From Treponema sp. (GTDB lineage: Bacteria > Spirochaetota > Spirochaetia > Treponematales > Breznakiellaceae): a stretch of DNA of 64,000 nucleotides. The position numbers and the translations under genes are program-made. The notes beneath the pieces were generated by a model. The model worked only from the letters and a program-made list of their open reading frames with translations, did not search any database and was not told the DNA's origin. Shown here in pieces: positions 1 through 62,847 of the stretch; the first letter of the stretch is position 1, and each line of letters begins with the position of its first letter. The stretch lies in assembly GCA_031267685.1 (NCBI GenBank), contig JAIRYV010000037.1:1-64000 (forward strand), in the 5' to 3' direction.

Positions 1-131
1 TTCTCCGTCTTGTCTATCTTTCTCTCCTCTCCGCGCTCGTCTGTCGCGCAATCTCAATCTCTATTTCTTACTATCCTCTCGATATAGCTACCGACTAGCT
101 TCATGCGTTTGTGCATGAAGCTTTCATGTAT
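1..131. other. Gene-free left edge with a perfect hairpin
   Basis: No coding frame with a credible start is visible. A perfect 10-bp inverted repeat, AGCTTCATGC / GCATGAAGCT with a 6-nt loop, lies at 97-122, just before the tandem array. It has no clear T-tract, so it is a weak terminator candidate for a gene to the left of the window, or a boundary element of the array. Confidence 0.5.
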
Positions 132-393
132 CTGCACACGCTAGTTGAGTGTGTACTACACACGCTAGTTGAGTGTGTACTACACACGCTAGTTGAGTGT
201 GTACTGCACACGCTAGTTGAGTGTGTACTACACACGCTCGTTGAGTGTGTACTGCACACGCTAGTTGAGTGTGTCTGCACACGCTAGTTGAGTGTGTACT
301 GCACACGCTAGTTGAGTGTGTACTGCACACGCTAGTTGAGTGTGTACTGCACACGCTAGTTGAGTGTGTACTGCACACACTAGTTGAGTGTGT
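132..393. repeat. Tandem palindrome array 1 (24-bp unit, 11 copies)
   Basis: Eleven contiguous units, nine of 24 bp and two of 23 bp, follow the consensus ctgCACACgctagttgaGTGTGta. Each unit has CACAC/GTGTG arms around a CTAG-containing centre, so each can form a short hairpin or bind a dimeric protein. Differences are single bases (ctg/cta, gctag/gctcg/actag) and two units lack one A. The 24-bp period keeps frame, so spurious 8-residue-repeat reading frames cross it on the minus strand. There are no unique spacers, so it is not CRISPR. A small hairpin (399-413) follows. Confidence 0.95.
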
Positions 394-494
394 CTGCACA
401 CCAACCTTTGGTGCGTCCACACATATTGGTTAGCAGGCTCCCGATGAGGCAGAAGTAGAAGTAACAACCGCTAACAAAAACGTTCTCAAACTAC

Positions 495-9418: not shown

Positions 9419-9838
9419 TTACTTGTCTGTATCTTTTGCATCCTTGTTATCGGCATCAGCCTTCTCTTCTTTCTTGCCTTCCAGCTTCTCGGCCTTTTCT
9501 TCTTTAGCCACTACATCGACACTGGAAATGGCACTGCGGGAGAATTCCATTTTGGCGTTCTCGTCTACCCTGACGATCACAGTGTTCTCCTTGACGCTCT
9601 GGATGGTTCCGTGGATACCACCGATGGTGGTAATACGGTCGCCCTTCTTGAGCGCTGCAAGCATCTTCTGAGTATCTTTCTGCTTCTTGTTCTGCGGTCT
9701 GATGATAAGGAAATAGAAGATACCAATAATCAAAACGAACGGGATAAGACTTGAAACAAGCGCACCCGCACCTCCTCCAGACGCAGCGGCTGCGGCGTCT
9801 GGTGTTCCCAAGAGCGGGAAAAGGGTAAATGGATTCAT
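9419..9838 (-). CDS. yajC: Preprotein translocase subunit YajC
   Basis: YajC is the small accessory subunit of SecDF-YajC. The start at MNPFTLFPLLGTP (139 residues) is preferred because a longer in-frame version (from 9937) adds 33 residues with no family character. A strong AAGGAGG lies 30-odd nt upstream of this ATG, unusually far, with a small GCCG...CGGC hairpin between that may shorten the distance. One membrane helix (LIPFVLIIGIFYFLII) is followed by RPQNKKQK and KKGDRITTIGGIHGTI, both characteristic of YajC. The C-terminus carries an unusual Glu/Lys/Asp-rich tail. First gene of the yajC-secD-secF operon. Confidence 0.9.
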   Translation of the reverse strand: MNPFTLFPLLGTPDAAAAASGGGAGALVSSLIPFVLIIGIFYFLIIRPQNKKQKDTQKMLAALKKGDRITTIGGIHGTIQSVKENTVIVRVDENAKMEFSRSAISSVDVVAKEEKAEKLEGKKEEKADADNKDAKDTDK

Positions 9839-10011
9839 GCTGAAATAGCCGTGGGAAAAGCCCTCGGCTTCCTCCTTAAAAATACTTAGGCTCGTTTTGA
9901 AACGCGTGGCATCAAACGGCCATGATTCATATACCATAACATGAGCAAAGAACGAACATCAAGTATGCTTTGTTGCAGGAAGGATAAACGATAGAAACAA
10001 AATTTTACCAT

Positions 10012-10271
10012 GAACCACACAAATCACACGAACAGAATAGGGCAGTCTTCATTTCTCTCTATACGCGAAGATGAACATTCGTGTGGTTCGTGATTCTAAA
10101 ACATTCTATGTGTTTATCCTGACGAGGGTGTCAGAAGACCTTCTGAACGTGTGTGAACCCATCAACGAAGGGGTTAGAAGACCTTCTGAACGTATACGTA
10201 CTACTCGACGAAGAGGCAGGATAAACACAATGAAGACTGCCGTATTCTGTTCGTTCCTGTTTGTGTGGTTC
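10012..10271. repeat. Nested inverted-repeat element, about 260 bp
   Basis: The outer arms at 10012-10052 and 10230-10271 are about 41 bp and nearly identical in inverted orientation (GAACCACACAAA ... CAGTCTTCAT). Just inside, GTGTTTATCCTG (10110-10121) and CAGGATAAACAC (10217-10228) form a second perfect 12-bp pair. The centre holds two copies of AGAAGACCTTCTGAACGT about 44 bp apart, themselves near-palindromic. The left arm also pairs partly with ATTCGTGTGGTTCGTG near 10079. The element fills most of the gap between yajC (minus) and the plus-strand gene at 10334. It encodes nothing convincing and resembles a MITE-like or large hairpin element. Confidence 0.85.
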
Positions 10272-10333
10272 TATAACTTCTGACATCACCTTTTGGCTAT
10301 TCCCTATGTCCTTATCTTGCCGATAGTATAAAA

Positions 10334-12076
10334 ATGGTAGATATGAGTAACACCGATGATACGTTCAATCGACTAGTATTGGATATGTCGCTGGAAGATC
10401 GGAAAAATCTTTTAGAGCGCTTGTCAAGTCAATCTAACCTTTCGCGGGACCCTTTATATGAAGAGAGCGTGGATACTTATAAAGAAGATATTATGGCGCA
10501 ATTCAGCCGTCTGCCTTGGTATGGGCGTCTGATTTGCTTTATCATGAGTATATTCAAGTCTATACCGCCAGATAAGGTGTTTGAGGACTCACGAATTGAC
10601 CGATTAGGCAAGATAATCGAATCGAAGGCCCCGGGTTACTTTGATCGTAAGCGTGTAATGATGTTGCCAGCCTTTCACGCAGCGCTTATTGAACTGAAAA
10701 CCGGGTCGCGTTTCTTCTATAACGCGCTGGATGCCAGCCTGAACCACGATAGGGGCGCGTTTTTCGCCTTTCTCGCCTCTCTTGAGATGCACGATATGTA
10801 CTCTCGTTTACAGAAAGAGACCGATCCACTCAAATTCGTGGATAGGCATCCAGATATTAGCGAGATGGACCTGCGACACATGGTGTTCCAGACCATGGAC
10901 GCGATATTAGAGACCATAAGTGAGCAAGAGCGGGAAAGTATGTATACTAACGCCCACTCCCTCTATAACCTCAAAGCACTGGCCAGCTTCCCCTTTGAGC
11001 GCGTGATTCTGTCGTTCCTTCCTGACCAGCAGATTAACGGACCAAGCTGTCCAGTCTATGTGGTAAAGGATCAGCTTATGTCCTTGAATGACATTCTGTA
11101 CTCCTTCAAAGACCCGCCTTCAATAGCCCTGATTGAGTCCTTGTTTGTGTTCCAGCTTCATGGTAGGGAAGAAAGGAAAAACTTTGATATGGATATGGAG
11201 ATGCCGGAGTTGCTCTACAAGGCCGAGAGCTCCCTTCTAACGTTCAGGAACTTTAACAAATATGTTCCACTCAACCTGATCCTGCGTTGTGCCACCCACG
11301 ACATGATGCTTGAACCGAGACTTCTCACGGGTGGCGAGGATTGGTTCGTAATGTTTCAAGATTACTGGCGACAGCACATTGAGAAGCAGATCGTTGCGTA
11401 TATGTGGGACCGGCATAAGAAGGAACTGTTTGAATCATTCCGCTACTTCCTCAAAGGCCGTAATCTCATGTTCCTTAATAACACGGCTTCTGACTCTAAC
11501 CCCGACGGGATTACAGTCCAAGGATCGTTCAGTCTTTCGTTTCTACTAACTTTCTATATTGTAGTATTCGTCAATGACCTCAACGGTCTGCTCAGAACGA
11601 TCCTGCTTGACGGGGACTTTGTGAAACGGGAGCAGCGCACAAGCTTTACCGAAGGCTATAACGACCTTATGAAATTGGAAAGTGATATCAAGGAGTTTGA
11701 TCAGTCTCTTGCCGCGACAGGAAGACTGGGAAAACGTTACATTTTAGCGCTTGAAGACCCTTCGATTCCGACACGTCTGCGAAAGACCCAACTGGTGATT
11801 GAAGACGCGACTGAGGAGGCCCAGCTCATCATTGAGCGGACGCGGAAGGCTATTGATGCCGTGATCAATGTTCTCAACACGATTATCACCAAAGACGAGG
11901 GTAACTACGAGGCTTTGAGTAACATGGCGCATTTTATCGGCAAGGCCGACCTGAGTTCTACAGCGTCGAGCCACAAGGAGATGGTCTTTCTCAACAATGT
12001 AACTGAAACAATTCAAAAACTACAAAAGACTGTACAGTTACTAGATGATATCAATGTTGTAGAGCTTGGAATTTAA
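10334..12076 (+). CDS. Treponema-type conserved hypothetical protein (DUF5312-like), 580 residues
   Basis: A soluble, largely helical protein with no signal peptide. One hydrophobic stretch (SFLLTFYIVVFVNDLNGL, about residue 395) could be a buried helix. The C-terminal 150 residues are long charged helices (ITKDEGNYEALSNMAHFIGK, EMVFLNNVTETIQKLQKTVQ) suggestive of coiled-coil packing. I associate it with the family of unknown function DUF5312, found mainly in Treponema beside argS; that assignment is from memory and untested. It precedes argS by 11 bp, implying co-transcription. The start could be Met1 or Met4 (MSNTDDTFNRLV); neither has a good ribosome site. Confidence 0.75.
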   Translation: MVDMSNTDDTFNRLVLDMSLEDRKNLLERLSSQSNLSRDPLYEESVDTYKEDIMAQFSRLPWYGRLICFIMSIFKSIPPDKVFEDSRIDRLGKIIESKAPGYFDRKRVMMLPAFHAALIELKTGSRFFYNALDASLNHDRGAFFAFLASLEMHDMYSRLQKETDPLKFVDRHPDISEMDLRHMVFQTMDAILETISEQERESMYTNAHSLYNLKALASFPFERVILSFLPDQQINGPSCPVYVVKDQLMSLNDILYSFKDPPSIALIESLFVFQLHGREERKNFDMDMEMPELLYKAESSLLTFRNFNKYVPLNLILRCATHDMMLEPRLLTGGEDWFVMFQDYWRQHIEKQIVAYMWDRHKKELFESFRYFLKGRNLMFLNNTASDSNPDGITVQGSFSLSFLLTFYIVVFVNDLNGLLRTILLDGDFVKREQRTSFTEGYNDLMKLESDIKEFDQSLAATGRLGKRYILALEDPSIPTRLRKTQLVIEDATEEAQLIIERTRKAIDAVINVLNTIITKDEGNYEALSNMAHFIGKADLSSTASSHKEMVFLNNVTETIQKLQKTVQLLDDINVVELGI

Positions 12077-23140: not shown

Positions 23141-23330
23141 TAAAGACTTCTACATTTATCCATCGAGAGTTATACATCTCTCGGCGAAAACTTGTATAAC
23201 TATTCATCGAGAGTTATACATCTCTTGGCGAAGAGATGTACATCTCTCATCGAAGACTTGTACAACTCTCGGCGAAGAGATGTACATCTCTCAGAAGAGA
23301 CTTGTACAACTCTCAGCAGAGAGATGAGAC
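23141..23330. repeat. Tandem palindrome array 2 (21-23-bp unit, about 8 copies)
   Basis: Contiguous units such as cgaagaGATGTACATCtctcat and cgaagacTTGTACAActctcgg alternate. Each is centred on TGTACA or a variant and bounded by GAGA/TCTC. Unit lengths of 21, 22 and 23 mean no frame is kept. The array is bracketed by perfect 12-bp direct repeats GTTTTTCTAAAG (23134-23145 and 23331-23342), the first overlapping a degenerate first unit. There are no spacers, so it is not CRISPR. Confidence 0.9.
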
Positions 23331-31174: not shown

Positions 31175-31905
31175 ATAAACCGAATATTTTGGAAAAATTG
31201 TATAGCGAAGCAGTTCAGTTATCTGAAACGCAAGAAAAACATTTTCCAAGATACGCAAACAAAGAATCTGGATTTTTAATCCTTGCCACAAGAGAAAGAA
31301 TCGCGTGGACAAAAGATGAAGGACAAGCGCTTAAAATACGTCGGCAACAGATAAAAGATGCTTTCTTGAATATTCTTGATGCAGTCCAAAATAATACCGT
31401 GGATGCACAAGAAGTTCTGAATTTACTTTCTTTGCAATACAAGCAAATATTTGATGATGCACTAAATGCGTCAGATTATACCAGTATTCTTAATATTGCT
31501 GCCTCTGACAAACATGACTATGGTGATATTGAAGTATAGAATGCCAATAACACTCCATTTGAAATGCTGGAAATTAAATATAAGATATCCATCGATAGCA
31601 ATTTGGTTTTTGATGTGGTTAAAAAATCGCGAAACACCTCGATTCAACGGTATTATATTTTAACTACCGCAAAAGATACCTTTATCTCTAACGATGAAGA
31701 GTTGTATATCAATAAATTTATCTTATCAATTAGAAATGATACAGGAATTGATATTATTCCCAATGGAATTTACATTCGAGCATATCCCAAACTTTGCCTA
31801 CTTCGGCTGTCCACCAGTGTCAGACACTATCTTTTCCTTAACGTTTTCGATGAAGAAATTCAAGTCTTCTTAGAGAAAATTCAAATTTTCTCGGAAGAAA
31901 TTTGA
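31171..31905 (+). pseudogene. Putative type II restriction endonuclease broken by an in-frame amber codon
   Basis: Codons 1-122 (ATG 31171) end at TAG 31537-31539. The same frame then stays open for another 122 codons to 31905. The joined product reads KHDYGDIEV-stop-NANNTPFEMLEIKYKISID, so the amber codon falls between a candidate catalytic Asp (GDIEV) and an E-x-K (LEIKY) of a PD-(D/E)xK nuclease. The second part continues with QRYYILTTAKDTF. After NGIYIRAYP the frame runs through a dispersed palindrome (31815-31830) into tandem array 3, so the true C-terminus is probably lost as well. The 4-nt overlap with the methyltransferase supports its identity as the cognate nuclease. Confidence 0.65.
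31815..31830. repeat. Dispersed palindrome AGTGTCAGACACTAT, copy 2
   Basis: The AGTGTC/GACACT dyad lies at the point where the endonuclease frame loses its family character, 18 bp before tandem array 3. It matches the elements at 15748 and 49237. Confidence 0.6.
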
Positions 31906-32037
31906 ATTTATGACAAAGAAATTTGAATCTTCGATGAAGAAATTTGAATCTCTGACAAAGAAATTCAAGTCTTCTTAGAGAAAATTCAAATTTTCTCGGA
32001 AGAAATTTGAATTTATGACAAAGAAATTTGAATCTTT
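31849..32037. repeat. Tandem palindrome array 3 (21-bp unit, 9 copies)
   Basis: Nine contiguous 21-bp units, such as gacaaAGAAATTTGAATCTTc and ttagaGAAAATTCAAATTTTC. The inner AAATTTGAAT appears in both orientations between GAA/TTC ends. Units 1-4 recur as units 6-9, so there is also a 105-bp higher-order repeat, evidence of a segmental duplication inside the array. The 21-bp period preserves frame, giving a minus-strand frame of heptads (RRFKFLC, HKFKFLP, RKFEFSL) that I regard as a by-product. No unique spacers are present. Confidence 0.92.
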
Positions 32038-32095
32038 CCAGAAGAAAGTATAGCTCTAAAACAGCCAAAGATTGTGTTAATCTTTTAAAAAGAGC

Positions 32096-37866: not shown

Positions 37867-38007
37867 CTCAGACGTTACATGTCATGGAAGCTGACACGTT
37901 ACACGTCATGGAAACTGACATGTAACGTGTCATGGATACTGACACGTTACATGTCATGGATACTGACACGTTACATGTCATGGAAACCGACACGTTACGC
38001 GTCTGAG
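37867..38007. repeat. Tandem palindrome array 4 (24-bp unit, about 6 copies)
   Basis: Units follow GACACGTTACATGTCatggaaact with four full 24-bp copies and partial end copies. The 15-nt core GACACGTTACATGTC is an imperfect palindrome, and in unit 3 (37917-37940) the core is exactly inverted while the ATGGATACT tail keeps its orientation. The array is bounded by inverted CTCAGACG (37867-37874) and CGTCTGAG (38000-38007). It lies between the alpha-galactosidase terminator and the promoter of the HU-like gene. Confidence 0.9.
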
Positions 38008-45490: not shown

Positions 45491-45510
45491 AGTATAGTAA
45501 GAGGATAACC

Positions 45511-45591
45511 ATGAACCACACGAACACCACCCAGAAATTTAGAAGCGCGGCGCGAGACCGTGCTATACTTAGTGGTAAGGAGAAAGCATGA
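45511..45591 (+). other. Possible 26-codon leader peptide coupled to the next gene
   Basis: ATG at 45511 has GAGG 5 nt upstream. The frame encodes MNHTNTTQKFRSAARDRAILS... and its TGA overlaps the ATG of the 45588 gene (ATGA). The first codons coincide with a CCACACGAACACC segment related to the dispersed CACGAA repeats, so the frame may be accidental. Confidence 0.3.
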
Positions 45592-58324: not shown

Positions 58325-58388
58325 GTCCACGAATACACGAATCTACCAGTTTTGACAGCTATTGTTTTTATTCGTGTAATTCGTGGAC
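58325..58388. repeat. CACGAAT hairpin between rpoB and rpoC
   Basis: GTCCACGAATACACGAAT (58325-58342) pairs with ATTCGTGTAATTCGTGGAC (58370-58388), an 18-bp stem with one bulged base and a 27-nt loop. It fills most of the 102-bp spacer and would appear in the rpoBC mRNA. Related hairpins lie at 62763-62818 and within 10012-10100. Confidence 0.8.
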
Positions 58389-62762: not shown

Positions 62763-62818
62763 TCCACGAATAGCGCAAATGGATACGAAACTACCTAATC
62801 CATTCGTGTAATTCGTGG
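62763..62818. repeat. CACGAAT hairpin after rpoC
   Basis: CCACGAAT pairs with ATTCGTGG and AATGGAT with ATCCATT, giving an interrupted stem of about 20 bp with a 13-nt loop, then TTTATTTATC. It starts about 20 bp after the rpoC stop and may double as its terminator. Confidence 0.75.
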
Positions 62819-62847
62819 GCTTTATTTATCTGTTTTCCCTCTGCTCC

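Follow-up and report, generated by a model that had tools for sequence, protein, structure and literature searches.

The window, the whole 64,000-nucleotide stretch analysed here, is contig C58 of a 2.67-Mb Treponema genome bin that is 82% complete; the related Treponema bins are probably of termite-gut origin, judging from isolate names and passages in the literature on the group (e.g. PMC13067680). The feature under study lies between yajC-secD-secF, which run leftward on one side, and the DUF5312 and argS genes, which run rightward in that order on the other, and no transposase open reading frame is found among these neighbours, as the preliminary description had stated. The inverted-repeat arms and two central copies reported there are all present by alignment and fold statistics, and the inverted repeats are real, far above chance. 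The outer arms pair at about 89% in 43-44 columns with a single gap, while the inner arms, TGTGTTTATCCTG ending at 10121 and CAGGATAAACACA beginning at 10217, pair perfectly over 13 bp and at 89% over 18; the central copies (10122-10164 and 10165-10207) have a period of 43 and 74% identity. Folded as RNA, positions 10005-10275 have a minimum free energy of -109.4, the mean of the shuffles being -67.1 (z = -8.8), with none of 200 shuffles equally stable. Within the window the arm sequence occurs only twice. A promoter and terminator scan of 9800-10400 gave nothing above chance, and no evidence was found of the hairpin acting as an RNA or DNA structure.

What had been described as one element of 260 bp is best read (probability about 0.9) as a cluster of two non-autonomous MITEs with ISAs1-subgroup ends, A and B, separated by a tandem repeat (Table 1), the large hairpin being a by-product of the two inverted copies. 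The feature begins not at 10012 but near 9980, with the outer terminal repeat AGGATAAACG; the common end CAGGATAAACRCATAGAA, cut off on the left by the narrower boundaries, was seen by side-by-side reading of matches in the window's own genome. Copy A aligns over 153 columns, at 72.5% identity, with a 154-bp two-ended copy of a congener (L114), and it also matches each half of 223-bp copies from another genus. Copy B shows 90% identity across 58 bp with a copy from contig C64 whose right end is retained. The inner arms are thus the facing ends of A and B, and the outer arms their homologous interiors in opposite orientation, the interior of B being the inverted counterpart of the left outer arm. 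Units related to the 43-bp repeats, with the same period, occur on contigs C100 and C72 (11 copies, beside another MITE copy).

Table 1. Positions of the MITE cluster, its surroundings and the rpoC hairpins in the window
Feature	Position	Strand	Remarks
MITE copy A	9980-10121	+	142 bp, nearly complete, both terminal repeats; left end AAGGATAAACG-ATAGAA with slight decay; TTCTATGTGTTTATCCTG at the right end
Left terminal inverted repeat of A	9980-9996	+	Placed by eye against CAGGATAAACGCATAGAA ends; one base shorter than consensus
Left outer arm of the preliminary description	10012-10053	+	Interior of A
Right terminal inverted repeat of A	10104-10121	-	Reads CAGGATAAACACATAGAA on the minus strand
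Two 43-bp tandem repeats	10122-10207	.	Between A and B
MITE copy B	10217-10273	+	57 bp, inverted relative to A; left end CAGGATAAACACAATGAA kept, right end deleted
Right outer arm of the preliminary description	10229-10271	-	Interior of B
Conserved block	10289-10333	+	Immediately 5' of the DUF5312-argS genes; retained in all five species of the genus (alignment)
Hairpins either side of rpoC	58325-58387; 62763-62819		Form GTCCACGAAT...ATTCGTGTAATTCGTGGAC, CACGAATTACACGAAT type

The ends of the MITE family read CAGGATAAACGCATAGAA...TTCTATGCGTTTATCCTG. In the window's own genome, the end pattern gave 12+20 matches at up to three mismatches, compared with 0+3 for the reversed control, copy numbers being taken from the match lists of the pattern search; moreover, the genome search for related copies proposed in the preliminary description, run with the 271-bp stretch, returned many partial matches on other contigs. 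Across the bacterial family, the end (at most one mismatch) is present in 76 of 200 genomes, which belong to 34 of the 57 genera; the control had no matches, and the count per genome is patchy, from 0 to 50. Elements of 66 to 323 bp that share these ends have very different interiors. Among 30 end-to-end pairs, target duplications of exactly 9 bp are seen in six cases without mismatch and in nine with at most one, where mismatched pairs give an expectation of 0, and no duplications of other lengths occur save one at 8 bp; examples are GTTATACGC (L170), TCAGGTGAA (L168), CTGTACGAG (L173) and GGCTCTCCG (L128). The target duplications that the preliminary description had proposed to look for are found, at 9 bp, on other copies, while none is readable around A alone or around A and B together, because the outer end of B is gone. 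The family has the attributes of bacterial IS-derived MITEs: its members are short and without a transposase gene, carry terminal inverted repeats at both ends, make a fixed-length target duplication (on other copies), and occur as dispersed copies with corresponding empty sites. The earlier view of a dispersed non-autonomous mobile element is borne out by the empty sites in relatives and by the 9-bp duplications on other copies. Elsewhere in the window, positions 45507-45525 hold a lone 18-19 bp fragment of MITE interior, AACCATGAACCACACGAAC, which lacks ends and could be due to chance.

A parent insertion sequence can be named for these ends. The element at L223 is 1374 bp long, its two 18-bp ends are identical to the MITE consensus, and between them lies an ISAs1-family transposase matching NF033564 at 1.8e-45 and 1.8e-9 in two frames (frameshift); it has no target duplication. 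Through L223, the MITE ends are those of a transposase-encoding ISAs1 element. Additionally, L164 is a 713-bp deleted version with MITE ends and the C-terminal part of an ISAs1 transposase, and at L214 and L216 ISAs1 coding sequence adjoins a MITE-type end. Terminal repeats beginning CAGG are common to ISAs1 insertion sequences and the window MITE, which nevertheless shares the ends alone and is non-coding. At L184, a relative carries an intact ISAs1 element whose ends differ (CAGGGCGAGCGCATT), and among the relatives examined, no intact ISAs1 transposase with MITE ends was seen. Another candidate parent, a transposase-like sequence of IS3-type appearance that follows a MITE end at L126 (G016:C359), was set aside, as by eye it looks more like another IS, perhaps one that went into a MITE copy. 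Of nine genomes searched for NF033564, six have it; the window's own genome does not, and no ISAs1 transposase was detected at E<=0.01 in this 82% complete bin. Three decayed ISAs1 ends (L035, L054 and L037; the best, L035, 136 bp at 79%) do remain there, so a parent was once present; it may be gone or may be located in the missing fifth of the genome, and the MITE copies of this genome may be stranded without a transposase.

Target duplications of the ISAs1 family are 8-10 bp long, a range into which the 9-bp duplications fall. A different origin was considered, in which REP/BIME-type palindromes would have been spread by a tyrosine (RAYT) transposase; such palindromes are likewise intergenic, dispersed and at times paired in inverted orientation, but the MITE family has long terminal inverted repeats and 9-bp target duplications, and its ends match an ISAs1 element. 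REP elements are not known to produce 9-bp target duplications, and on the strength of those duplications we reject a REP/RAYT origin as extremely improbable.

Congeners L079 and L081 have an empty site with sequence matching on both flanks, their yajC-DUF5312 spacer running from ...CAAGTATGCTT to ...CTTTTGACATC (or TTTTGATATC) and holding some 15 bp where the window has about 300 bp. At the orthologous site A and B are missing from four congeners; two of these have such a clean empty site, as the preliminary description had proposed to look for, and the two copies are specific to the window lineage among the five species compared. The 45-bp conserved block adjoins the DUF5312 start, and the insertion stops about 15 bp before it. 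Given the very stable predicted fold near the operon start, the hairpin could be taken for a regulatory structure of the DUF5312-argS operon or its structured RNA leader; against this stand the absence of the feature from four congeners, including the two clean empty sites, the related copies that adjoin many other genes, the lack of any Rfam match above family cut-offs, and the position of the conserved block by the start codon, downstream of the hairpin. A conserved leader is refuted by the empty sites in congeners, and a leader of any kind has, in our estimation, next to no chance of being correct. A single-copy feature conserved as an RNA leader had been named in advance as the finding that would overturn a mobile origin, and the outcome goes against such a leader.

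Another reading takes positions 9980-10273 as a single MITE of a longer subtype, with an internal tandem array, that moves as one piece. Contig C64 has a comparable arrangement within 365 bp (left end, then tandem repeats, an internal CAGGATAAACACA copy and right end), with a 7-of-9 target duplication, TTGGATGGC/TTAGATGCC, on either side of the outer ends and none around the inner 95-bp copy. However, the tandem units differ, being 43 bp in the window and 22 bp on C64; copy A in the window has both of its own ends, whereas the left part of the C64 unit does not; and the array could have grown after insertion. We regard movement as one unit as possible, though on balance doubtful, and retain the reading of two inverted MITE copies.

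Short tandem arrays are present elsewhere in the window (127-401, 23161-23326, 31852-32047 and 37872-37998, besides 10121-10213), and unrelated arrays occupy the yajC-DUF5312 spacer of congeners L080 and L082, so that congeners bear different arrays at this place. In the loci examined, a biased sample, 44 distinct arrays with at least three copies comprise 26 with a period of 21-24 and 10 with a period of 43-48. An array lies within 150 bp of six of 15 MITE loci in the window's own genome (L001, L002, L003, L007, L011 and L051), although both may simply be intergenic. It is conceivable, but rather improbable, that MITE insertion is linked with the growth of 21-24 or 43-bp arrays that would be born in or beside MITEs and be able to travel inside them, intergenic regions thereby being rebuilt species by species.

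The hairpins around rpoC, to which the preliminary description had related the arms, were considered as the same element and rejected: they are a different palindrome without the CAGGATAAAC ends and match the MITE weakly, and the proposed kinship comes down to CACGAA-type words, the terminal repeats being absent. The rpoB-rpoC hairpin occupies an orthologous place in three congeners (G001, G003 and G004) and the hairpin downstream of rpoC does so in G004; the rpoC hairpins predate the split of these species. In a nearly complete related genome, G033 (L258, L263 and L268), one rpoC-type palindrome arm, CCACGAATTACACGAAT, has 217 matches with at most one mismatch, whereas the remaining 58 genomes searched have 0-7.

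The most likely course of events at the site would begin with an ISAs1 transposase that recognised the ends in trans and moved a MITE into the intergenic DNA between the divergent yajC and DUF5312-argS genes; we infer such mobilisation because of the shared ends and the 9-bp duplication. This insertion would have made a 9-bp target duplication. A second copy may then have landed in or beside the first in the opposite orientation, the 43-bp unit between the copies may have been duplicated, and a later deletion would have removed the second copy's outer end, an order of events that is likewise inferred.

IS-derived MITEs with 9-bp duplications are already known. For example, MITEAba12 of Acinetobacter is short and non-coding, generates 9-bp duplications and has the same terminal repeats as a coresident IS that is presumed to mobilise it (PMC6382973); its parent is ISAba12 and its length a uniform 111-114 bp, whereas the window family varies from 66 to 365 bp with differing interiors. 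The MITEs of Anabaena sp. 90 are mostly intergenic, form hairpins and measure 77-541 bp, but no parent IS was recognised for them and they were called type II (PMC3542288), while the window family has a parent. Among the open-licence papers searched, none describes such a MITE from termite-gut spirochetes. The present analysis defines a widespread MITE family of termite-gut Treponema together with its parent insertion sequence and thereby accounts for a kind of large hairpin that might pass for an RNA leader or regulator; it also makes a simple end sequence available for annotating these genomes.
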